The notes beneath the pieces were generated by a model, which saw nothing but the letters and a program-made list of their open reading frames with translations, was not told the origin of the DNA and did not search any database. The translations under genes were made by a program, and so were the position numbers. From assembly GCF_025836975.1 (NCBI RefSeq), contig NZ_CP107548.1:1426001-1490000 (forward strand): a stretch of 64,000 bases of DNA. The letters are read 5' to 3'. Below, one piece after another: positions 5,654 to 32,232 of the stretch. Source of the stretch: Pollutimonas sp. M17. Its GTDB lineage: Bacteria; Pseudomonadota; Gammaproteobacteria; Burkholderiales; Burkholderiaceae_B. Every line of letters begins with the position of its first letter. Position 1 is the first letter of the stretch.

Positions 5654-6279
5654 GGTTGCTTCCCTTTTTCCTGGTCGATGACGATAGAGTCAAGCGCGTT
5701 GATTTCGTTGGTATCCACATGCACCATGTCTTTGAGTTTGTCCACGTCGACTTCTTCGACGTCTTTGTCGCGCTTGGGCCAGTCGCCTTGTTTGAGGCAC
5801 TGGATGCAGTAGACGATTTCGACAAAGCCCTGGAACAGCAGGGTGACGCCGGCCAGGGGAATGATGAACTTGAAGGGATAGATGGGCGGGCCGTCGGCGG
5901 TAATGGTGGAGTGTTCATTGATCATGTACGACTCCAGGGCATAGTTGTAGCCGGCCCAGGCCAGCGCCACGACGCCGGGTATGAAGAACAGGATGTACAG
6001 GGTCAGGTCCAGGCCGGCCTGCAGGCGGGGCGGGAAGAAGCCGTACAGAACGTCGCCGCGCACGTGTCCGTTCTTGGACAGGGTGTAGGCGCCGGCCATC
6101 ATGAACAATGCGCCGTACATCATGTTCATGGCGTCGAAGGCCCATGAGTGCGGATCGCCCAGCGCGTAGCGCGAAAACACTTCGTAAGTCACGAACAGCG
6201 TCAATGCCAGGACAAACCAGCCAAAAAGCTGCCCTATCCAGGTATTGACCCGGTCTATTGTTTGCAAAAATTTTTGCAT
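5650..6279 (-). CDS. dctQ: TRAP transporter small permease (DctQ-type)
   Basis: Four-helix inner-membrane subunit that pairs with DctM. The 209-residue protein starts MQKFLQTIDRVNTWIGQL and has the typical WIGQLFGWFVLALTLFVTYEVFSRY first helix, then NGHVRGDVLY and a last helix with PLAGVTLLFQGFVEIV. The ATG at 6279 is preceded by AAGGTG nine bases upstream; an in-frame ATG at 6324 would add a stretch not seen in the family and lies beyond that site. An acidic C-terminal tail (DKDVEEVDVDKLKD) is longer than usual. Confidence 0.9.
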   Translation of the reverse strand: MQKFLQTIDRVNTWIGQLFGWFVLALTLFVTYEVFSRYALGDPHSWAFDAMNMMYGALFMMAGAYTLSKNGHVRGDVLYGFFPPRLQAGLDLTLYILFFIPGVVALAWAGYNYALESYMINEHSTITADGPPIYPFKFIIPLAGVTLLFQGFVEIVYCIQCLKQGDWPKRDKDVEEVDVDKLKDMVHVDTNEINALDSIVIDQEKGKQP

Positions 6280-18835: not shown

Positions 18836-18903
18836 CAAAAAAAGCTGCCCCGAACCTTGCGGTGTCGGGGCAGCTTGTATTCTTTGGTGGCGCATCCCTG
18901 ATT
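18836..18903 (-). repeat. Terminator plus 19-bp tRNA-Met 3'-end scar, left end of the ars island
   Basis: On the minus strand this reads as a tRNA 3' end (TGGTGGCGCATCCCTGATT on plus, 18885-18903) followed by a 12-bp stem terminator (AAGCTGCCCCGA 18842-18853, TCGGGGCAGCTT 18865-18876) and a T-run. The 62 bp from 18842 to 18903 resemble 23748-23807 closely, so the two probably are the ends of one integrated segment. Identity to the tRNA stops in the T-loop. Confidence 0.7.
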
Positions 18904-19420: not shown

Positions 19421-19894
19421 ATGCGATTCCATGTACATTTGCACGTCAATAACTTAGAGGTGAACATCGCCTTCTATTCAAAGCTCTTTGCCGCCAAGCC
19501 AATTCGCATCGAGGCGGACTACGCTAAGTGGATGCTTGAGGACCCACGTGTCAATTTCGCTATCTCGACGCGAGGCAATGCAACGGGCGTTGACCATTTG
19601 GGGCTCCAGGCCGATGGGCCTGAAGAATTGGCAATGCTCAAAGGTCGTGCGCATGATGCCGATATGGTGCTTCTCGACCAGGGCGAGACGAACTGCTGCT
19701 ACGCCCGGAGTGCAAAACACTGGGTCACCGACCCCCAAGGCGTTGCCTGGGAGCATTTTCATACGCTGAAGAACATTCCTGTATTCGGGCAGAACTCGGA
19801 GCGTGGTGCTTCGTGCGAGAAAGTTTGCTGCGCTGCATCCAACCCAGGGAACTCGGCCAGTCCGTCCACGCAAGATACCCCAACCTGTTGTTAA
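19421..19894 (+). CDS. arsI: ArsI/CadI-family VOC protein, probable organoarsenical C-As lyase
   Basis: A 157-residue metalloenzyme of the vicinal-oxygen-chelate fold. MRFHVHLHVNNLE, YAKWMLEDPRVNFAIS, GVDHLGLQ and TDPQGVAWEHFHTL are family signatures. His4/His6, His59 and the Glu of WEHFH are likely Fe(II) ligands. The paired Cys92-Cys93 in NCCYARS is the substrate-thiol site known for ArsI; CadI-type relatives keep this region too. The C-terminal 30 residues add CEKVCC and a terminal CC, perhaps for metalloid binding. AGGAG precedes the ATG. Such enzymes remove the methyl or aryl group from trivalent organoarsenicals. Confidence 0.88.
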   Translation: MRFHVHLHVNNLEVNIAFYSKLFAAKPIRIEADYAKWMLEDPRVNFAISTRGNATGVDHLGLQADGPEELAMLKGRAHDADMVLLDQGETNCCYARSAKHWVTDPQGVAWEHFHTLKNIPVFGQNSERGASCEKVCCAASNPGNSASPSTQDTPTCC

Positions 19895-19905
19895 AGGACG
19901 CCGCT

Positions 19906-20406
19906 ATGGCCGATAAGATTTACAACGCGCTATTTCTCTGTAGTCGAAATTCAGCACGCTCCATCCTGGCCGAAGGCCTTTTGAACGAACATGGGCATGG
20001 TCGGTTCAAGGCGTATTCGGCTGGAAGTGACCCTTCCGATGAGGTCCATCCGCTCGCGCTCGAGACGCTACAGTCGCTAAGAATGCCGACGGCCGGATTT
20101 CGCAGCAAGAGCTGGAACGAGTTTGCAAAACCCGATGCCCCTCAGATGGACTTCATTCTCACGGTCTGCGACAAAGCGGCCGGAGAAGTCTGCCCAGTAT
20201 GGCCTGGACAACCGATAACCGCACACTGGGGTGTAGCTGACCCAGTTGCCTTTGAAGGGGATGACGCAGCGAAGCTGCACCAGTTCCGTGCAGCGGCGGT
20301 CACCCTTACACGTCGTATTGAGCTTCTTCTGTCGTTGCCTTTGCATCGACTAGATGCGCTTGCCATTAAGCGTGAAATCACAGATATCGGATTGGCTGAC
20401 CAATGA
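19906..20406 (+). CDS. arsC: Arsenate reductase, low-molecular-weight phosphatase type (first copy)
   Basis: Cytosolic enzyme reducing As(V) to As(III). The 166-residue protein has the N-terminal P-loop CSRNSARS (Cys-x5-Arg), YSAGSDPSDEVHPLALETL, and FILTVCDKAAGEVCPVWPG with a second Cys pair near residues 90-98. An HWGVADP motif follows. The P-loop has Ser-Arg where most relatives have Thr-Gly or Thr-His. AAAGGA precedes the ATG; the last four bases overlap the second arsC (ATGA). Confidence 0.92.
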   Translation: MADKIYNALFLCSRNSARSILAEGLLNEHGHGRFKAYSAGSDPSDEVHPLALETLQSLRMPTAGFRSKSWNEFAKPDAPQMDFILTVCDKAAGEVCPVWPGQPITAHWGVADPVAFEGDDAAKLHQFRAAAVTLTRRIELLLSLPLHRLDALAIKREITDIGLADQ

Positions 20407-20891
20407 CCGTGAACGTTCTTATTCTTTGTACCCACAACTCGGCACGCAGCGTACTGGCCGAGGGCATGCTCAACCACTGGGCAAGAGTGCTCGGTAAAGA
20501 CGTACGCGCCTACAGCGCGGGCAGCACACCGAGTGGGCGAATCAATCCCCACGCTTTAACAGCGTTGCAGGCCGCTGGAATAAGTACCGAAGGCTATCGG
20601 AGTAAGAGCTGGGATGAGTTTACGGGTGCCTCGGCGCCCGAAATGCACGTGGTAATTACCGTGTGCGACAGCGCGGCTGCCGAGCAGTGTCCATATTGGC
20701 CCGGCAAACCGGTAAAAGTTCATTGGGGATATCCGGACCCCTCAAACGCACCGGAGGAGCAAAAGGCCAATGCCTTTGAGCTTACACGTCAGGCGCTCGG
20801 CTATCGCATGCTGCAACTACTCTCCTACCCACTGAACGAGCTTGATAGTTCCGAATTGCAAGTCATCCTTACGCGTATTTCCAAGACCTAG
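20403..20891 (+). CDS. arsC: Arsenate reductase, low-molecular-weight phosphatase type (second copy)
   Basis: A 162-residue paralogue of the preceding protein with the more typical P-loop LCTHNSARSVLAEGML, YSAGSTPSGRINPHAL, VVITVCDSAAAEQCPYWPG and VHWGYPDPS. The two copies differ at many positions, so they are diverged paralogues and not a recent tandem duplication. Translation is coupled to the first copy through a 4-bp overlap. Different electron donors (thioredoxin, glutaredoxin) are possible but cannot be read from sequence. Confidence 0.92.
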   Translation: MTVNVLILCTHNSARSVLAEGMLNHWARVLGKDVRAYSAGSTPSGRINPHALTALQAAGISTEGYRSKSWDEFTGASAPEMHVVITVCDSAAAEQCPYWPGKPVKVHWGYPDPSNAPEEQKANAFELTRQALGYRMLQLLSYPLNELDSSELQVILTRISKT

Positions 20892-20896
20892 TTCTT

Positions 20897-21976
20897 ATGA
20901 CCGCTTCTACATTAGCCGCCGAAACGTCGGCCAAGCCCGCTATTTCCTTTTTTGAGCGATACCTTACTGTCTGGGTGGCCGCTTGCATCGTGATAGGGAT
21001 TGGGCTGGGCCAGTTGCTGCCCGGGTTCTTTCACGATGTGGCTAACCTGGAAGTCGCAAAGGTGAATATCCCGGTGGGGGTGCTCATCTGGGTCATGATT
21101 ATTCCGATGCTCTTGAAAATCGACTTCGGAGCCCTGAATCAAGTCACATCGCATTGGCGTGGTATTGGCGTCACGCTCTTCATCAACTGGGCGGTCAAGC
21201 CGTTCTCGATGGCGTTACTTGGGTGGATTTTTATTCGCCACATATTTGCGCCGTACCTGCCAGCCGAACAATTGGACAGCTATGTGGCTGGGCTCATCCT
21301 GCTTGCGGCCGCGCCGTGCACAGCCATGGTCTTTGTATGGAGTCAACTCTGCAAAGGTGACCCATACTTCACGCTTTCTCAGGTGGCGCTGAATGACGCC
21401 ATTATGGTCGTCGCCTTCGCACCGGTGGTCGCGTTGTTGTTGGGGCTGTCGTCGATTACGGTCCCATGGGACACGTTGCTGGTCTCAGTTGGTCTATACA
21501 TCGTGGTTCCGGTCATCATTGCTCAAGTTTGGCGCAAGAGGTTGCTACTTCGCGGTGCCGGACACTTCCAGGCCGTTACCTCGAAGCTGGGACCATTGTC
21601 CATTGGCGCCTTGTTGCTGACGCTGGTTTTGCTTTTCGCCTTCCAAGGAGAGGCTATCCTTGAGCAGCCGCTAGTTATTGCACTGCTTGCAGTGCCCATC
21701 TTTATACAGGTGGTGCTCAACTCCGGCTTGGCTTATGTGCTCAATCGAAAGCTGGGCGTCAAACACTGTGTCGCCGGTCCATCCGCCCTCATTGGAGCGA
21801 GCAATTTCTTCGAGCTCGCCGTGGCGACAGCGATTAGTCTTTTCGGCTTCCAGTCTGGCGCTGCACTGGCGACGGTAGTCGGCGTACTCATTGAAGTCCC
21901 GTTGATGCTCGCCGTGGTCGCCATCGTTAACCGTACACAATCTTGGTATGAAGCAGGGCAAACCGCTGCTCAGTAA
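20897..21976 (+). CDS. acr3: Arsenite efflux permease, ACR3 family
   Basis: Inner-membrane As(III) exporter with ten hydrophobic helices, 359 aa. Diagnostic features are [31 protein letters not shown] and the conserved Cys in [20 protein letters not shown], with a last-helix [19 protein letters not shown]. This is the ACR3 type and not the ArsB type. It lies five bases after the second arsC and completes the arsenate detoxification route: reduction then export. Confidence 0.95.
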
Positions 21977-21981
21977 ATCGC

Positions 21982-22719
21982 ATGACCGATATCACTTATC
22001 TTCAGAACCCCACAGAATTCCCTGCGCTTGATGAGGCGCTCTTCGAAGTCCCTTCGGTGGCAAGGCTCGCCACTCACGAACGGTCTCGGCACAAACCGCG
22101 CTTTCTAATGCTTTATGGCTCGGTTCGGCAGCGCTCATACAGTCGACTGTTGACGTTCGAGGCCGCTCGCCTCCTTGAGGCGATGGGCGGCGAGGTCAAA
22201 GTATTTAATCCCAGCGGCTTGCCGCTACCCGATGACGCGCCGGATACTCATCCTAGAGTCAAGGAACTGCGCGAGCTGGTGCAGTGGGCCGAAGGGATGG
22301 TTTGGACGTCTCCCGAGCGCCATGGTGCGATGACCGGCATCATGAAAGCACAGATTGATTGGATTCCGTTGGCGCTGGGAGCCGTCCGCCCGACACAGGG
22401 TAAGACATTGGCGGTCATGCAGGTGTCGGGAGGGTCACAGTCCTTCAACGCCGTGAACCAGATGCGTGTGCTTGGGCGCTGGATGCGGATGGTGACCATC
22501 CCCAATCAATCGTCCGTCGCGAAGGCGTTTATGGAGTTCGACGAAGAAGGTCGCATGAAGCCATCCAGTTATTACGACCGGGTCGTCGATGTGATGGAGG
22601 AGCTCGTTAAGTTCACACTGCTCACGCGCGACGCCAGCTCGTACCTTGTAGACCGTTATAGCGAACGCAAGGAGAGTGCCAAGGAGCTCTCCAAGCGCGT
22701 GAATCAGCGGTCCATATGA
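21982..22719 (+). CDS. arsH: ArsH, NADPH-dependent FMN reductase-type organoarsenical oxidase
   Basis: Flavoprotein of 245 aa. The flavodoxin-like core has [22 protein letters not shown] (FMN phosphate loop within GSVRQRS), [20 protein letters not shown] and [20 protein letters not shown]. By family knowledge ArsH oxidises trivalent methyl or aromatic arsenicals to less toxic pentavalent forms, which complements ArsI. Last recognised gene of the ars operon, five bases after acr3. Confidence 0.94.
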
Positions 22720-23742: not shown

Positions 23743-23778
23743 AAAAAAACTGCCCCGAAACTTGAAGTCTCGAGGCAG
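23743..23778 (-). terminator. Terminator attached to the third tRNA-end copy
   Basis: On the minus strand, stem CTGCC/GGCAG (23750-23754, 23774-23778) continues with CGA/TCG after one mismatch and is followed by seven T residues. It is homologous to the terminator at 18842-18876, including the following GGCAGCTTGTATTC. Confidence 0.75.
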
Positions 23779-23787
23779 CTTGTATTC

Positions 23788-23835
23788 CTGGTGGCGCATC
23801 CCTGATTCGAACAGGGGACCTGCGGATTATGATTC
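23788..23835 (+). repeat. attL: 48-bp direct repeat of the tRNA-Met 3' half
   Basis: Identical over 48 bp to 32155-32202 inside the intact tRNA gene. It runs from the CCA end to the anticodon loop, where identity stops (TTCTGC here, TTCCGTC in the tRNA), as expected for a tyrosine recombinase that crosses over at the anticodon loop. It marks the left end of an 8.4-kb element. Confidence 0.92.
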
Positions 23836-26442: not shown

Positions 26443-26505
26443 AGCGCGGTATGGCGCGATAGCACGCGCGCATATCGGGAGAACATCGTATGAGATAAAG
26501 AATCC

Positions 26506-26534
26506 GTATCACCACAAATAAACAGAGGTGATAC
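26506..26534 (+). promoter_or_regulatory. Inverted repeat covering the ribosome-binding site of the AlpA-like gene
   Basis: GTATCACC (26506-26513) and GGTGATAC (26527-26534) are perfect complements 13 bp apart. The right arm includes the GAGGTG ribosome-binding site, so the repeat could be an operator or an mRNA hairpin that limits translation. Confidence 0.6.
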
Positions 26535-26537
26535 ACG

Positions 26538-26762
26538 ATGGATACTATCCAACAGCCGCACACCACCGCTTCACAATTCCCCCCGCTGGAAGCGGTAACC
26601 AGCCCGGCAGTACCAACCCCCCAGGCCGCCCACTATCTGAACCGCCAGCCGCAGACCCTCCGCGTGTGGGCTTGCTGCGAGAATGGCCCAATTCGCCCCC
26701 TGCGTATCAATGGCCGACTTGCATGGCGCGTGTCCGATATTAAAGCTGTGATGGGGGTGTAA
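26538..26762 (+). CDS. AlpA/excisionase-like helix-turn-helix protein
   Basis: A 74-residue DNA-binding protein. After a Pro-rich start, PQAAHYLNRQPQTLRVWACC and GPIRPLRINGRLAWRVSDIK match the MerR/AlpA-like winged helix used by excisionases and regulators of integrase in islands. It may promote excision of the element. GAGGTG precedes the ATG at the right distance. It heads a run of closely packed small genes. Confidence 0.75.
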   Translation: MDTIQQPHTTASQFPPLEAVTSPAVPTPQAAHYLNRQPQTLRVWACCENGPIRPLRINGRLAWRVSDIKAVMGV

Positions 26763-26764
26763 GT

Positions 26765-26950
26765 ATGAGACCCGAAACCATCGTTACCTATCAGGACCCG
26801 GATGGCCCGCGCATCGTGTTTGATGCCGACCAATTGATGGTGACAGCCAGAGACGCTGATGGCACAACCGTACATATTGAAATCGGGCGGCTTGGAATGC
26901 TTGAGCTTGGGCGCGCCGTGATTCGCATTGGTCAACCGGAGGGCAAATAA
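26765..26950 (+). CDS. Small element-borne protein, unknown function
   Basis: A 61-residue acidic protein (MRPETIVTYQDPDGPRIVFD at the start) that looks like a single beta-sheet domain. It begins two bases after the AlpA-like gene stop, behind GGGGGTG, and its stop TAA shares a base with the next ATG. No family recognised. Confidence 0.6.
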   Translation: MRPETIVTYQDPDGPRIVFDADQLMVTARDADGTTVHIEIGRLGMLELGRAVIRIGQPEGK

Positions 26951-27294
26951 TGAAAAACGCCCCCGACCGCAAAGCAATCGAGAGCGCCAAAGACCAAGGC
27001 CATTCTAACACTCGCAACAATTTTAAAGGTACCGACAATCCCCGGCACCTTCGCACCCTGCAAGCCTTGTTGAAACGTCCCCTACCGCGTGAAACGCTGG
27101 ATAAGGTAGCGGGGTGCTCCAATGGCCCCGACCTTGTTGCAGAGCTTCGCCGCCGTGGCCTGAAAGTGCCCTGCGAACGTATCCGTTTCATTGACCGCGA
27201 CGGCAAGCTGTGTAGCCCAGGCGTTTACAAGCTGCTGTCCACCGACCGCACCCTGATTTACCGTTGGCTTGCACAAGGCCGGAGGGTGGCGTAA
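26950..27294 (+). CDS. Small element-borne protein, possible winged-helix
   Basis: A 114-residue basic protein. The segment LRTLQALLKRPLPRETLDKV, then GPDLVAELRRRGLKVPCERI has the layout of a winged-helix domain of the type seen in phage and island regulators, and YKLLSTDRTLIYRWLAQGRR closes it. Overlap of one base on each side (TAATG) shows tight translational coupling. Confidence 0.65.
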   Translation: MKNAPDRKAIESAKDQGHSNTRNNFKGTDNPRHLRTLQALLKRPLPRETLDKVAGCSNGPDLVAELRRRGLKVPCERIRFIDRDGKLCSPGVYKLLSTDRTLIYRWLAQGRRVA

Positions 27295-27368
27295 TGAGCG
27301 CCATGCAAGTCGTGGTTTTTTGGCTAGTCGTCGCGTGCCGTTGGTTATTTAGCAAGGGAGCGCGATGA
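27294..27368 (+). CDS. Possible 24-residue hydrophobic microprotein
   Basis: A short frame starting at the A of the preceding stop (TAATG) and ending one base before the next gene's ATG. The peptide begins MSAMQVVVFWLVVACRWLF and ends in SKGAR, that is, one membrane-length hydrophobic stretch with a basic tail. Its exact fit between two coupled genes supports translation; it may only serve to carry ribosomes to the next start, since it contains that gene's GGGAG site. Confidence 0.4.
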   Translation: MSAMQVVVFWLVVACRWLFSKGAR

Positions 27369-27773
27369 ATGGCAACGAAATCACGCTTCAAACCGAACCG
27401 GCGAGACGCGGGCATATTCATTCAGGTTCCGCTGTCCGTACTAGATTCCGAGGCTTACCTGACGCTTACGGCCCATGAGGCAATGCTGTTATGGGATATC
27501 GCCAGTCAGTATCGCGGCATGAATAACGGTCGGTTGTTGGCAGGATGGAAGTACATGCATGAGGCCCGCAGATGGAAGTCCCGCGACACACTGGACAGGG
27601 CAAGGGCGGCGCTACTGGAACGAGGGCTGATATTTCGTACCCGCCAAGGCCGAATGCCGAATCTATCAAGCTGGTACGCCTGCACTTGGTGGCCTCTGGA
27701 CCACTGCCCAGAGATGGACGTTGGCTCGCAATCACTACCGCGAGGGCAATACAACCGCTGGAGGTCCGAGTAG
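27369..27773 (+). CDS. Element-borne helix-turn-helix protein, possible replication or regulatory protein
   Basis: A 134-residue basic protein. FIQVPLSVLDSEAYLTLTAH, EAMLLWDIASQYRGMNNGRL and SRDTLDRARAALLERGLIFR resemble the winged-helix domains of small island replication/regulator proteins, where a tail such as NLSSWYACTWWPLD follows. It directly precedes the palindrome cluster at 27789-27911, which could be its binding target. GGGAG precedes the ATG. Confidence 0.6.
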   Translation: MATKSRFKPNRRDAGIFIQVPLSVLDSEAYLTLTAHEAMLLWDIASQYRGMNNGRLLAGWKYMHEARRWKSRDTLDRARAALLERGLIFRTRQGRMPNLSSWYACTWWPLDHCPEMDVGSQSLPRGQYNRWRSE

Positions 27774-27788
27774 AAATTGATTTCATGT

Positions 27789-27911
27789 GCACGGCAGCCG
27801 TGCCTAGAGCACCCATATAAGCACGGTAGCCGTGTATAGGGAATCGTCATGAGCACGGCAACCGTGTCTATGGAGACCGCTTTTACCCCATCCCTATACA
27901 CGGTGGCCGTG
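27789..27911. repeat. Cluster of four CACGG-N3-CCGTG palindromes
   Basis: Four inverted repeats share CACGG-N3-CCGTG: 27790-27802 (flanks extend it to GCACGGC-A-GCCGTGC), 27822-27834, 27854-27866 and 27899-27911. The first three are spaced exactly 32 bp apart and the last 45 bp. A larger inverted repeat links copies two and four: CCGTGTATAGGGA (27830-27842) and TCCCTATACACGG (27891-27903). No gene lies here. Cooperative operator sites, an origin with iterons, or a structured 5' leader of the next gene are the main options. Confidence 0.8.
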
Positions 27912-27962
27912 CACTATCTAGATAAGCCATCTGTATAGGCACGAATCGAAAGGACAGGCAAC

Positions 27963-28442
27963 ATGAACGCCCAACTACCAGAACTGAAAATTAAGCGGAT
28001 CGAGGATGAATTCGGTAAAGGGCCGATTTTTCTGGAACAGGACACATCCGGGGGATTCGACCATGTGCCATCCTGTGATGAGCAGGCTCAAGCCGGCTTT
28101 TTGTCGGGCATACCGGCGATGCTTATAGGGCAGTCTAAGCGTGAGCGTCACGCTGAACGGACATCCGAATGGGTAAGCAATAGTCAGTCTTGCTGCGCCG
28201 TTGCCACGGATTTAAAGAAAGCGAGGGCTCATAAGGTGACGAACCCCGACCCTGCCAATCCTAAAACCACGGTATCTGTATCGCTTACCAACCTACAAGG
28301 AATTGAAGATGAAACGACCTGCTCGTTTGCTGAAGGGGCTTGTTCGACTCCTGACCTTTGGCCACTACCGACGAAACATGAATGCATGGACAGACTTGGT
28401 GCTGGCGCAGTCCATCCTCCAGCCATTGACCTACGAGTCTAG
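27963..28442 (+). CDS. Element-borne protein of unknown function
   Basis: A 159-residue protein starting MNAQLPELKIKRIEDEFGKG behind AGGACAGG. No family recognised. Its last 134 bp overlap the next gene in another frame, which is unusually long; the C-terminal part after about residue 115 may be a run-on past an ancient frameshift, or the next gene may be the true reading there. Confidence 0.5.
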   Translation: MNAQLPELKIKRIEDEFGKGPIFLEQDTSGGFDHVPSCDEQAQAGFLSGIPAMLIGQSKRERHAERTSEWVSNSQSCCAVATDLKKARAHKVTNPDPANPKTTVSVSLTNLQGIEDETTCSFAEGACSTPDLWPLPTKHECMDRLGAGAVHPPAIDLRV

Positions 28443-28548
28443 TCGTTTTGATGATGACAGGCGAGACCGATATATAGCCGAGGCGGCGTACTACATCGAC
28501 AGTGCAATGCGCAAACTCTATGGCGAAATGTACACAGGTGGAAGATGA
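28309..28548 (+). CDS. Small element-borne protein, unknown function
   Basis: A 79-residue basic protein starting MKRPARLLKGLVRLLTFGHY. The C-terminal part (DDDRRDRYIAEAAYYIDSAM) looks helical. The ATG at 28309 is preceded by AAGGA; it overlaps the previous frame by 134 bp and the next gene by 4 bp (ATGA). Confidence 0.55.
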   Translation: MKRPARLLKGLVRLLTFGHYRRNMNAWTDLVLAQSILQPLTYESSRFDDDRRDRYIAEAAYYIDSAMRKLYGEMYTGGR

Positions 28549-28919
28549 GCATGACAAACAATAACGCTCAACGGTTGGCAGCGTACCGGAAGCGACTTGA
28601 AGAGGGTGGCTTCAAACGCGTTAGTGCCTACGTGTCGCTTGACCTGGTTGCGTACCTTCAAAGCCAGAACGCGCCGGGCGAATGCATTGGCCGCACACTG
28701 GAACGGCTACTTCTGGGTAGCGCAAAGGAACGCCCTCGATACTATTCTGATGAAGAAATGGTGCGCAAAGAAGCGCGGCGGCGTGAGAGGGTCACGCAAC
28801 GTGCTCAAGTGAGGAAAGCAATCCGAGTCGAGCAACGAGCACTTCGTCGCGCCGAATGGGAACGGCTCAGGCAGGAAGCAATGGAGCGCATTGGCTTGTT
28901 GAGAAAACCTGAGACTTGA
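28545..28919 (+). CDS. Element-borne protein with possible ribbon-helix-helix N-terminus
   Basis: A 124-residue strongly basic protein. AQRLAAYRKRLEEGGFKRVS and AYVSLDLVAYLQSQN resemble the strand-helix-helix of RHH proteins, and the rest is a long charged helix rich in Arg and Glu (QVRKAIRVEQRALRRAEWER). It may be a DNA-binding maintenance or relaxase-accessory protein; this is a guess from composition. Last gene of the rightward run in the element. Confidence 0.55.
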   Translation: MSMTNNNAQRLAAYRKRLEEGGFKRVSAYVSLDLVAYLQSQNAPGECIGRTLERLLLGSAKERPRYYSDEEMVRKEARRRERVTQRAQVRKAIRVEQRALRRAEWERLRQEAMERIGLLRKPET

Positions 28920-29081
28920 GGGTTGTGCTCATGCGTGCGGGATGGTGGAAGTAGGACGTGGCAATCCCGATTGTCCAAATGCTAGCTTTTGTTAACATGC
29001 TGGCTTCACAGGCCGGCGGATTTCCAGGCGCTGCCGTGAACAAAAGAGCACTGGGCGAGTTGCGTTAATTGCACGGTGCGC

Positions 29082-29453
29082 TTACCTCAGGCCGACCTTT
29101 TTCAGGTACTCGTCCAGATAGTCCCCCGTCAGGTCGTACAAGCTCATTGGCTCGGCCGGTTCGTCTTCGGTCGCTTCCAGCGGCATAGCTTCGATTGCTT
29201 GCGACAGGGCCACTTCCTCGGCCGTCTTGCGAACCATTTCTGCATGTTGCACGCGTTTCATGGGGTCGTTTATGCCCATCAGATTGTCTGGTATCTGGTC
29301 GGTTACCGTGCTGATCGAGTCCATCGCTTCACCGGTCAAGCTGTCCAAATATGTCGCCAATTGCCGCTGGCATTTCATTTCTTTGTACGCGGTCGGTGCG
29401 CGGTCTTCGAGCGCCAGTTCCAGCGTCCGCCACATTTGCTGGTAGTTCATCAT
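29082..29453 (-). CDS. Partner gene downstream of the Sir2 gene, unknown function
   Basis: A 123-residue acidic, mostly helical protein starting MMNYQQMWRTLELALEDRAP and ending in YDLTGDYLDEYLKKVGLR. It lies 46 bp after the Sir2 gene on the same strand and is likely co-transcribed with it. No family recognised. Its position suggests a functional partner of the Sir2-like protein or an unrelated passenger. Confidence 0.6.
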   Translation of the reverse strand: MMNYQQMWRTLELALEDRAPTAYKEMKCQRQLATYLDSLTGEAMDSISTVTDQIPDNLMGINDPMKRVQHAEMVRKTAEEVALSQAIEAMPLEATEDEPAEPMSLYDLTGDYLDEYLKKVGLR

Positions 29454-29499: not shown

Positions 29500-30351
29500 T
29501 TATGCCGTCAACAGAGCGTTTATTTCTTGCAGAGCCTGCATACCATCCATCGCGAGGCTGACGTGGCCAGGATGGCCGTGAATTTCAGGTTCTCGTGGAT
29601 TAATGCGTATAACTGGCGCCCGGTGGTTAAAGGAAACCGCGTGCGTGAAGTCGCGGGTAGTGGGAATCGCTGTACCGGCACCAATCTCGATCACGAGCAG
29701 CCGCTCGGCATCCAGCAGCCAGTGCTCAAGCCTTCTTTGCTGCATACGGACGCGCTGCTCCTGCCATTCATCGTCGCCAAACATGTAAATGTTCGGACGT
29801 GCTAAGCCACCGCAGTGTGGGCAACGTGGCGGCTCGTTCAGCAACCGGCAGTTTTCTTCGTCCACATCCGGTGTGAAATCATCGGTGGACCAGATGTCGG
29901 TTGTACATGCGTCCAGGCATTGAAGGTAGTGAATTGAGCCGTGGCACTCAGTGATCAGGCTGGCATCGAAACTTGCCTTTTGGAAGTGCCCATCAACATT
30001 GCTGGTAAAAGCCATGTAGCCGCACGGACTGTTTTTACCCCATTTCCTAAGTATGTCGTAGCCTGCATGTGGTGCTGTTTGGCGATACAGGTTGAGCCGG
30101 TGGCCGTAAAAACCCCATGCAACTTTAGGCTGCTGCCGGAACGCACGGGGTGATGCAATCGATATGAAATCGAGGCTGCTGCGTTCAAGCGCCGGGTAGG
30201 CACGCCAGAAACCTTGATTTCCGCGAAAGTCTGGTAGGCCAGAATCAATACCCATACCGGCTCCTGTAACGACCAATATCATTTCTGCCGTGTCTACGAG
30301 TTGAGCCGCTTTCTCAACGCTTTGGTATGGTGTGGCTGTGTACTTATCCAT
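29500..30351 (-). CDS. Sir2-family NAD-dependent protein
   Basis: A 283-residue single-domain Sir2 fold. NAD-binding motifs are VTGAGMGIDSGLPDFRGNQG (residues 28-47), FYGHRLNLYRQTAPHAGYDI and TSNVDGHFQKA (116-126). His137 in ECHGSIHYLQC is the catalytic position, and four Cys (145, 149, 177, 180) form a zinc knot. GAGTAIP follows. The start at 30351 (MDKYTATPYQ) was chosen because the upstream in-frame extension to 30474 shows no conservation-like features. Deacylase activity is the default; Sir2 domains on mobile elements also serve as NAD-depleting phage-defence effectors, so both roles are open. Confidence 0.88.
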   Translation of the reverse strand: MDKYTATPYQSVEKAAQLVDTAEMILVVTGAGMGIDSGLPDFRGNQGFWRAYPALERSSLDFISIASPRAFRQQPKVAWGFYGHRLNLYRQTAPHAGYDILRKWGKNSPCGYMAFTSNVDGHFQKASFDASLITECHGSIHYLQCLDACTTDIWSTDDFTPDVDEENCRLLNEPPRCPHCGGLARPNIYMFGDDEWQEQRVRMQQRRLEHWLLDAERLLVIEIGAGTAIPTTRDFTHAVSFNHRAPVIRINPREPEIHGHPGHVSLAMDGMQALQEINALLTA

Positions 30352-30492
30352 TGCGACGACTCTATTTTTACGGGTTTTCTGCAAATATGGTGCGCACGAA
30401 AATTGCATAGAACTGATTATGTTCTTTGGGCCAATATGAGCGTTACGAATGCAGTTCCCTGTCCCCACTTCCAAATTGAAATGCTAACTGAG

Positions 30493-30849
30493 CTAGAAAG
30501 ATCCAACCCCAGCAATACTAGAAGAATAGGGAAGATCAGAAAAATCGAGATGATTCCTGCGCTCACAATGTGAAAAATCCCAATCTAAAAAACCATCTAA
30601 CTGTTCCGGCCTCTCGCCCGTTTTTTTACGCTTAATCCAGGAAGCCCACAAGGAAATAAAATGACGCCAGGCGATGAAAGACAATACCAGCCCGGCGATA
30701 TAAGTGAGTATGCTTGGATCTGGGCCGTAGCTGTCGTATTCAAGATCAATGTTGTCATACGCACCATATCGGTCAGCTTGAGTGGCAGTGGAGAAGGCAG
30801 CTAGTAATGCAATCGCTATACCACGATGTGATTTTGAAGGCTTTGGCAT
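30493..30849 (-). CDS. Small exported or membrane-anchored protein, unknown function
   Basis: A 118-residue protein with a signal peptide (MPKPSKSHRGIAIALLAAFS, cleavage near TQA-DRY) and one further hydrophobic stretch (ILTYIAGLVLSFIAWRHFIS), then a polar tail. An in-frame ATG at 30891 overlaps the preceding gene by 22 bp and has no ribosome-binding site at a usable distance. It follows the lipoprotein gene on the same strand, so both act at the envelope. Confidence 0.55.
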   Translation of the reverse strand: MPKPSKSHRGIAIALLAAFSTATQADRYGAYDNIDLEYDSYGPDPSILTYIAGLVLSFIAWRHFISLWASWIKRKKTGERPEQLDGFLDWDFSHCERRNHLDFSDLPYSSSIAGVGSF

Positions 30850-30869
30850 ATCTATTGGTCTGTCCACGC

Positions 30870-31625
30870 TTAGGGTTTCACGTCGGGCCATCCCTGCGCA
30901 CAGTAATCGGTGATGAAGTCGACGAAATTTTCAGTTGGTACTTCGGGTGCTGAATATCGCGTGTTTGTTGACCAAAGCAGGTAGGCAGCACTTTGGTGGC
31001 TGATCTTGTTGTTCTTCGATGTGGTGAGCATGAGATTAAGGGCATCTTCTTTAGGAACACCATCGCGCATTAACTTGTCGATTGAGCCTGCCAGCTTACG
31101 ATGTGATGAACACGACAACTCGACGTATTTCTGTTCATCGATAATCCCTTTGGGCTTGTCGCCATTGTTGGCATAACTAACAGGTGAAGTTGACGCCTGT
31201 TCTTCGGTTGGTGGTTTGTCTGTCCAGCCAAGCTTGATCATGCAGCCTTTCATAATTGCATCCTGCGCTCGTCGAGCACGTATGGAAGCGCCAAGTGCCG
31301 CGCCTTGCGCAACCCCTGATGAGAATGCTGACCCTGGGCTGGGTGTGACATAGCCCGAGTAGTTACTGGTCCGAAAACCGCCTTGGCCGTATGAACTGAT
31401 CGTACCGGTAATGTTGTAGCTTTGTTGGGCGGGGGCGTAGACGCGAGCATCTGGCATTGGCGCAGCGCCGTGGGCTACCTGTGTGCAATAACCTTCATCG
31501 ACTGCTTTTTGGTTAGCTATCAGTTCTGCATCGCCGGCAGAGTAATTGTGGTTGTACCACTGAGTGTTGGCACACCCGACAAGTATTCCGGCCAGGGATG
31601 CGCATACTGCCATTCTTTTTATCAT
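30870..31625 (-). CDS. Lipoprotein of unknown function
   Basis: A 251-residue protein with a lipoprotein signal: MIKRMAVCASLAGILVGCAN, where LVGC is the lipobox. The next part is Gly/Ser/Tyr-rich (GTISSYGQGGFRTSNYSGYV) with a glycine-zipper-like segment (GVAQGAALGASIRARRA), and the C-terminal part is helical with two Cys. An ATG 12 bp upstream would put acidic residues in the signal, so the later one was preferred. It may be a cell-envelope or superinfection-type cargo gene; no family recognised. Confidence 0.65.
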   Translation of the reverse strand: MIKRMAVCASLAGILVGCANTQWYNHNYSAGDAELIANQKAVDEGYCTQVAHGAAPMPDARVYAPAQQSYNITGTISSYGQGGFRTSNYSGYVTPSPGSAFSSGVAQGAALGASIRARRAQDAIMKGCMIKLGWTDKPPTEEQASTSPVSYANNGDKPKGIIDEQKYVELSCSSHRKLAGSIDKLMRDGVPKEDALNLMLTTSKNNKISHQSAAYLLWSTNTRYSAPEVPTENFVDFITDYCAQGWPDVKP

Positions 31626-31703
31626 GTCAGCGTCCATTGAGATTTAAAAACAGTAGAGTTACATACTGTAGTATATAAAGCAGTAGTGCGCCACTCTACG
31701 CGC

Positions 31704-31964
31704 ATGAGCACAAATACAGTTTCTAACCCCGCGACAGCACGTACCAGAATCGCAGTAAACCTAAAACGCCTGCGTACCGAGCGGGGGTTGAGTCAGGAAC
31801 GTATGGCTGAGTTGGCCGACTTTCACCGAACGTATGTGTCTCAGCTTGAGCGCTGCGTTACCAACATAAGTATTGACGGCCTAGAACGCATTGCCCACGC
31901 CTTAGGTGTTGATGTCGTTGAGCTGCTGGTGGCCCAGTCAGATGAGGGGCAGACGGACGAGTAA
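31704..31964 (+). CDS. XRE-family transcriptional regulator
   Basis: An 86-residue helix-turn-helix protein: ARTRIAVNLKRLRTERGLSQ, MAELADFHRTYVSQLERCVT and IDGLERIAHALGVDVVELLV are the five-helix XRE fold, as in controller proteins and small repressors. It is divergent from the lipoprotein gene; the shared 78-bp region holds CAGTAG twice and CTGTAG once between 31650 and 31690, possible operators. It likely controls the cargo genes and/or itself. No ribosome-binding site is evident at 31704. Confidence 0.85.
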   Translation: MSTNTVSNPATARTRIAVNLKRLRTERGLSQERMAELADFHRTYVSQLERCVTNISIDGLERIAHALGVDVVELLVAQSDEGQTDE

Positions 31965-32154: not shown

Positions 32155-32202
32155 CTGGTGGCGCATCCCTGATTCGAACAGGGGACCTGCGGATTATGAT
32201 TC
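32155..32202 (+). repeat. attR: 48-bp direct repeat within tRNA-Met
   Basis: Right-hand copy of the 48-bp sequence at 23788-23835. It supplies the 3' half of the tRNA gene, so integration leaves the gene intact. Confidence 0.92.
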
Positions 32203-32232
32203 CGTCGCTCTAACCGGCTGAGCTAATGCGCC
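32156..32232 (-). tRNA. tRNA-Met(CAT), integration target
   Basis: A 77-nt cloverleaf with encoded CCA: acceptor GGCGCAT/ATGCGCC, D-stem GCTC/GAGC, anticodon loop ATCATAA (CAT) and T-loop TTCGAAT. The anticodon stem has one A-C mismatch at its base. CAT also occurs in tRNA-Ile2 with a modified C34, so the elongator-Met assignment is likely but not certain. The 3' half is duplicated at attL. Confidence 0.88.

Follow-up and report, generated by a model that had tools for sequence, protein, structure and literature searches.

A palindrome cluster within a small integrative element

The window analysed here is a 64,000-nucleotide stretch of the genome of Pollutimonas sp. M17 (NZ_CP107548.1, positions 1,426,001 to 1,490,000), and it contains an element of about 8.4 kb whose ends are a 48-bp exact direct repeat (Table 1). 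Of 20 relatives searched, G370 and G374 have an empty site, with flanks contiguous across one copy of the repeat; most of the others matched at the tRNA side only. The end repeats, the integrase gene and the empty site in a relative identify the segment as a tyrosine-integrase integrative element, and an excised form of it would fit the att repeat together with the two empty sites.

Besides the integrase, the element encodes an AlpA-like protein, several small proteins without assignment, a 134-aa helix-turn-helix protein and, rightward, a Sir2-type deacylase. The 74-aa AlpA-like protein matches HTH_17 (0.0051, below the Pfam cut-off) and phrog_66, excisionase and regulator (0.0039), and a 59%-identical match of 61 residues lies upstream of a homologue of the 134-aa protein in another locus (L049). 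No family match was obtained for the 114-aa protein in Pfam, PHROGs and further scans; its blastp relatives are encoded upstream of the homologue in L065 and L061. The 159-aa ORF gave no family match in Pfam, PHROGs, further profile scans or PADLOC, and no blastp relative in the other loci. Plasmids yielded no close DNA relatives of the region 26500-29100.

Table 1. Features of the element; positions are those of the window.
Feature	Position	Strand	Remarks
Left att repeat	23788..23835	.	48 bp, identical to the 3' portion of the right-end tRNA
Tyrosine integrase, 473 aa	23987..25408	+	Phage_integrase 1.5e-10, Arm-DNA-bind_3 1.5e-7, phrog_1 1.2e-33
AlpA/excisionase-like small HTH protein, 74 aa	26538..26762	+	Weak matches
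114-aa protein	26950..27294	+	Immediately precedes the initiator candidate
134-aa winged-helix protein, proposed short initiator	27369..27773	+	Model, PHROG matches, covariation
Palindrome 1	27787..27805	.	Core 27790-27802
Palindrome 2	27819..27837	.	Core 27822-27834
Palindrome 3	27851..27869	.	Core 27854-27866
Palindrome 4	27896..27914	.	Core 27899-27911
Degenerate copy of AT-rich box, proposed DNA-unwinding element	27913..27930	+	Window version ACTATCTAGATAAGCCAT
Next ORF, 159 aa	27963..28442	+	No assigned family
Right att repeat	32155..32202	.	Inside tRNA(CAT) 32156-32232, minus strand

A preliminary description of this DNA had reported four CACGG-N3-CCGTG palindromes at regular spacing between the helix-turn-helix gene and the next ORF, and both the palindromes and the flanking genes are present at the positions it gave. 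The four cores are exact CACGGNNNCCGTG sites, which follow one another at 32, 32 and 45 bp. The claim that the cluster is beyond chance also holds, as none of 100 dinucleotide shuffles of the window contained four such sites (mean 0.13, largest 1). The second-order 13-bp inverted repeat said to link two of the palindromes was likewise recovered: site 2 has CCGTGTATAGGGA, and site 4 the reverse complement of it, TCCCTATACACGG. It is a piece of a longer pair of 22 nt with 86% complementarity. Sixteen sites of the CACGGNNNCCGTG type occur in the 3.85-Mb genome; apart from the four described here they are scattered, and no two of them are closer than 5 kb. A motif search of the same genome found no second CACGG-motif array. 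The unit that recurs in relatives is closer to 19 bp than to the 13-bp core.

Phased arrays recur after the 134-aa gene in related loci

Homologues of the 134-aa protein were collected from a class-wide set (18 of 369 genomes matched, the source genome included), from GTDB genomes (43 loci), viral contigs (11 loci) and one phage record, and from a phylum-wide set (27 of 398 genomes matched, the source genome included). The first scan of viral contigs, made with the single 134-aa protein, had given no relative. We searched the 280 bp after each gene for a symmetric 19-bp motif by expectation-maximisation, and counted as arrays those that scored above 10 and above ten shuffles. The shuffles used here, in the control windows, in the second set and in the box test described below kept single-base composition only.

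Arrays were found after the gene in 42 of 55 loci, or 41 of 54 when the window itself is set aside, some of these loci being near-identical and one at a contig end (L041) having been left out. The same test was passed by none of the 55 control windows upstream of the gene and by 12 of 1094 elsewhere in the same loci. In the second, phylum-wide set, which shares at least two genomes with the earlier ones, 20 of 26 loci passed when the same thresholds were applied to scores from a 340-bp stretch. In many loci the array extends into the 3' end of the homologue's ORF. The four palindromes of the window thus belong to a recurrent layout, found next to relatives of the 134-aa protein in many bacteria. 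It is the layout that is conserved, and the sequence of the palindrome varies from locus to locus; therefore a search for the same motif next to homologues, as the preliminary description proposed, would have missed the arrays of the relatives.

Homologues without a detectable array, a case that the same description regarded as counter-evidence, do occur (for example L042, L057 and L003/L170) and are a minority. Eleven of the 13 loci that failed the first test show, by eye, the AT-rich box described below and mostly degenerate or direct repeats, and L042 and L057 show neither array nor box. The six loci of the second set that fall short of the threshold are L166, L170 (from the same genome as L003), L171, L178, L182 and L185.

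Spacings between neighbouring palindromes in the relatives cluster around 22, 32, 43 and 53 bp. The final two palindromes are 43-45 bp apart in 35 of 38 loci. With the window set aside, 115 adjacent spacings from 38 loci fit a period of 10.7 bp best (R of 0.85), compared with R of at most 0.36 in 2000 spacing sets drawn evenly from 19-60 bp; the near-identical loci L037, L071 and L074 and one site each of L033 and L052 were left out of this test. When each distinct layout is counted once, R is 0.81. The window spacings of 32, 32 and 45 bp correspond to 2.98, 2.98 and 4.19 helical turns. Since the spacings are close to multiples of 10.7 bp, the palindromes point to roughly the same side of the helix, which would be expected if proteins bound to neighbouring sites touch one another.

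Recognition-helix residues covary with the half-site

The half-sites found across the loci include CACG, CTAC, GTAC, CCCG and others. In the structural model of the 134-aa protein the predicted recognition helix comprises residues 72-85, and R72 and D73 stand at its start. In a set of 46 loci, all less than 60% identical to one another, half-site similarity is 0.669 for pairs with the same residues 72 and 73 (27 pairs), as against 0.469 for the remaining pairs (1008), and none of 5000 permutations was as high, a permutation that removes relatedness only in part. The difference persists among pairs below 45% identity (0.642 for 19 pairs versus 0.454 for 839 pairs; 0/5000 permutations). The six best of 83 alignment columns are 75, 73, 67 and 72, which lie at or near the start of the predicted recognition helix, together with 56 and 25. 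Residues 72-73 were picked in a first test of 30 loci that were reused in the 46-locus test, so that the two tests are not independent; in that first test no single column passed the 95% best-column null (0.338 versus 0.362).

Grouping of loci by these two residues gives CACG for RD in 10 of 11 cases, GTAC for K[ES] in 10 of 11, CTAC for E[AQT] in seven of eight and CCCG for K[DQ] in six of nine. These counts come from the 71 of 98 loci with a passing array of three or more sites, from which the 46 loci above were drawn, and they contain some duplicated or closely related loci (L004 and L022 are one contig, as are L010 and L036). Exceptions include L007, L012, L016, L067 and L189. We conclude that the 134-aa protein very probably reads the palindromes, and that two of its amino acids most likely help to decide which palindrome is read.

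An AT-rich box follows the last palindrome

A shared AT-rich box, roughly CTTTATAKATNTACCAT, lies right after the last palindrome. With leave-one-out scoring it exceeds all 30 shuffles in 43 of 56 loci. The window version ACTATCTAGATAAGCCAT is in the right place and scores 8.2 against shuffles of up to 14.1, which is not above chance when taken alone; its AT-lability is at the 99.1 percentile within 400 bp on either side. On the same scale the box in the family has a median percentile of 98.9 and reaches at least 95 in 27 of 39 loci, and in only 12 of 39 is it the site of the single most AT-labile 20-mer. The order typical of O-type origins, repeats at the gene and then an AT-rich stretch, is thus found in the family, with a weak box in the window. 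A scan of viral contigs with the box pattern returned 83 matches, three of them with an array above threshold; two were already known and one (L111) was new. A homologue is encoded upstream in L111 and, judged by eye, a capsid-like protein downstream.

Sites for host replication factors were also sought. Exact DnaA boxes number two in 39 loci, compared with 0.7 in shuffles (largest 3), and those with one mismatch number 21 against 29.8, so there is no clear excess. A site for IHF that appears plausible by eye in the spacer between palindromes 3 and 4 was rejected as a feature of the family, as it recurs with one mismatch in 0 of 36 loci and with two in 8 of 36, where 7.3 are expected.

Fold and family relations of the 134-aa protein

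The predicted structure (mean pLDDT 90.9) is a winged helix with no second domain. No C-terminal recruiting domain was recognised in the modelled protein, whose ORF ends before the array; homologues have longer tails of variable sequence. Profile searches with the window protein matched phrog_270 (0.0018) and the O-like phrog_678 (0.0034). Across the 49 family members the DnaD-like loader profile phrog_186 was matched by 14 and phrog_678 by 13, the best matches reaching about 1e-6. None of the 16 Pfam families matched by any of the 49 members at an E-value of 0.1 is RepA_N or phage O, and TIGR01610 is matched by one member (0.0046). A distant relative, L188, matches TIGR01610 at 1.6e-6, below the curated cut-off, and has its repeats inside the gene.

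Structural comparisons lead, weakly, in a similar direction. In a profile search of the PDB, RepA-type initiators are the top four of six matches, all weak (E 0.046-0.15). Foldseek against the PDB returned no match at 0.001 or better; its first match is a RepA-type initiator domain (E 0.017), and ranks 2 and 3 are a zinc regulator. The first Foldseek match among viral models is named RepA-like replication initiator (E 0.0015). Alignment to RepA-type domains with VIA-align gave a Z of 7.2, no higher than for unrelated winged helices. Taken together, profiles and folds point weakly to initiators of the phage-O, DnaD and RepA_N types.

Gene neighbourhoods of the homologues

In Pseudomonas phage vB_Pae_U1 the homologue is annotated by the depositors as replication protein O and the next gene as DNA primase. 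In Cupriavidus locus L189 the homologue is flanked by genes for a Toprim protein and a DEAD helicase; the repeats in the interval between these two score 6.2, which is below threshold, and do not fit the recognition code. Blastp of the other loci found no relative of the L189 Toprim protein and a single distant one of the helicase, far away in L028, and replication enzymes detectable with these two queries are absent from most of the elements. We therefore rejected replication genes beside the homologue as a general rule, and the replication-gene context rests on one element because the two L189 proteins have no adjoining relatives elsewhere. Ahead of its homologue, L189 also has at 5681-5947 a shorter second copy of the DNA-binding domain, which matches homologues of 17 loci by blastp.

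A probable replication origin and competing explanations

Iteron origins are built in this way: palindromes in phase next to the gene whose product recognises them and, after the palindromes, a segment of readily melted DNA. On the strength of the sequence comparisons above we consider it probable that the region is a replication origin and that the 134-aa gene encodes the initiator of an 8.4-kb integrative, satellite-like element. From these features we infer a course of events in which dimer binding, unwinding, replisome loading and replication itself would follow one another. The element would first be excised by its integrase. Dimers of the winged-helix protein would then occupy the four palindromes, on about one face of the helix, and form a nucleoprotein complex; this complex would open the AT-rich stretch just beyond palindrome 4, and a host or helper replisome would be loaded there.

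The preliminary description had offered an origin, a cooperative operator and a structured leader RNA as explanations. The origin is the best supported of the three. The leader RNA is disfavoured because both the helical phasing and the link between recognition helix and half-site suggest that a protein reads the region as duplex DNA. The operator is the principal competitor, although we regard it as unlikely: here the 134-aa protein would be a transcription factor, and the phased array would control a downstream operon for packaging, cargo or another function. Winged-helix regulators do have the same fold, the next ORF of at least 80 aa is co-directional in 33 of the 37 loci with data, and the box is, by eye, T/A-rich like a -10 region. 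However, the array comes after the gene to which it belongs and in many loci runs into the 3' end of that gene, and the distance from the box to the next ORF ranges from 12 to 1137 bp, with that ORF on the other strand in four loci (ORFs were called mechanically). The PHROG relations, moreover, are with replication proteins.

A role in packaging appears improbable. The protein would in that case act as a small terminase at repeats by a cut site of the cos or pac kind and would direct how a helper phage packages the element. A cos layout does look much like repeats next to a short conserved box, and terminase, portal or HK97-type capsid genes lie near the homologue in L023, L065, L068 and L070, with capsid and portal genes in L065 and L070. 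Yet L023 encodes a separate small terminase, no capsid, portal or packaging gene was found among the ten proteins of the window element scanned against Pfam and PHROGs, and, as the box is shared among elements whose hosts differ widely, a single cutter would have to serve them all. It is more improbable still that the cluster is a centromere-like partition or incompatibility site instead of a start site. Partition systems too have clustered palindromes bound by a dedicated protein, but no ParA-like gene was found among the element proteins scanned and the PHROG relations point to initiators.

If the origin reading is extended to the whole family, these elements may share, across the phylum, a minimal type of origin that depends on a helper or the host. 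We put this forward tentatively, as a possibility somewhat less likely than not. Such origins would combine a single-domain initiator that has no recruiting domain, four phased and freely varying palindromes and a shared AT-rich entry box, and their identity would be set largely by two residues of the recognition helix (RD for CACG, K[ES] for GTAC, E[AQT] for CTAC, and K[DQ] often for CCCG). Were the proposal to hold, many small integrative, satellite-like elements would have a recognisable origin and initiator, in bacteria for which initiators of the RepA_N type are described as rare (PMC7145576), and it could be predicted which element's protein recognises which origin. The single-domain initiator would also be a clean system for studying how such proteins start replication, which for RepA_N-type initiators is described as unknown (PMC7145576).

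Comparison with known replication systems

Searches of open-licence literature gave no description of the 134-aa family, and the nearest case among their results is the PLE satellite of Vibrio cholerae. According to the accounts of this satellite, its RepA_N protein binds semi-palindromic iterons and varies together with the origin (PMC7145576, PMC8263062). The present element would resemble PLE in having a winged-helix initiator, in being an integrative satellite, and in the semi-palindromic iterons and the joint variation of DNA-binding domain and origin. PLE differs in the C-terminal domain of its RepA, a serine recombinase and an origin of three repeats of about 30 bp, as described in the same accounts (PMC7145576, PMC8263062), whereas the window element has a short protein, a tyrosine integrase, four phased palindromes of about 19 bp and the shared AT box.

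RepA_N plasmid initiators (PDB 4pql, 4pt7, 4pta and 5kbj) are the closest solved folds and profile matches, if weakly so, and their iterons are described as carrying inverted sub-repeats (PMC7145576). We nevertheless set the 134-aa family apart, and judge from its sequences that it is not a member of RepA_N, because no separate C-terminal domain was recognised, none of the 49 members matches the Pfam RepA_N family, and the four-site layout with its box is the family's own.

Initiators of the lambda O type resemble the family through the O-like PHROG matches and the TIGR01610 match of L188, with its repeats in the gene. In lambda the repeats lie at or in the 3' part of the O gene and are followed by an AT-rich stretch, and the C-terminal half of O, encoded after the repeats, recruits the helicase loader. 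The 134-aa gene, in contrast, ends before the repeats in the window, and those of its relatives end near or within them. PICMI satellites of the Vibrionaceae are also small elements with an integrase and alpA that replicate after excision; their replication gene is described as a putative primase (PMC10803314).

Further genes of the element and its left flank

The four genes at the right end of the element (29500-31964) were scanned against NCBIfam or PADLOC only. One of them, on the minus strand at 29500-30474, is the Sir2-type NAD-dependent deacylase (NF001753, 4.7e-37, below the curated cut-off), which has no PADLOC match and is possibly cargo. At 31686-31964, on the plus strand, lies a gene for a small HTH protein like the control proteins of restriction-modification systems (PADLOC, 2e-22); PADLOC scans of seven further proteins of the element detected neither restriction nor methylase genes. 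The ORF at 29082-29453, on the minus strand, has a weak TnpV-like match (5e-5, below the Pfam cut-off).

Close to the element on its left side, at 19813-22719, several ORFs resemble, as judged from their translations, arsenate reductases, an arsenite transporter and an ArsH-like protein. An 88%-identical second copy of the surroundings of the left att repeat (23743-23807) occurs 4.9 kb leftward, at 18838-18903 (1444838-1444903 of the genome), so that the segment that holds the arsenic-type genes may stem from another, earlier insertion into the site that the element occupies.
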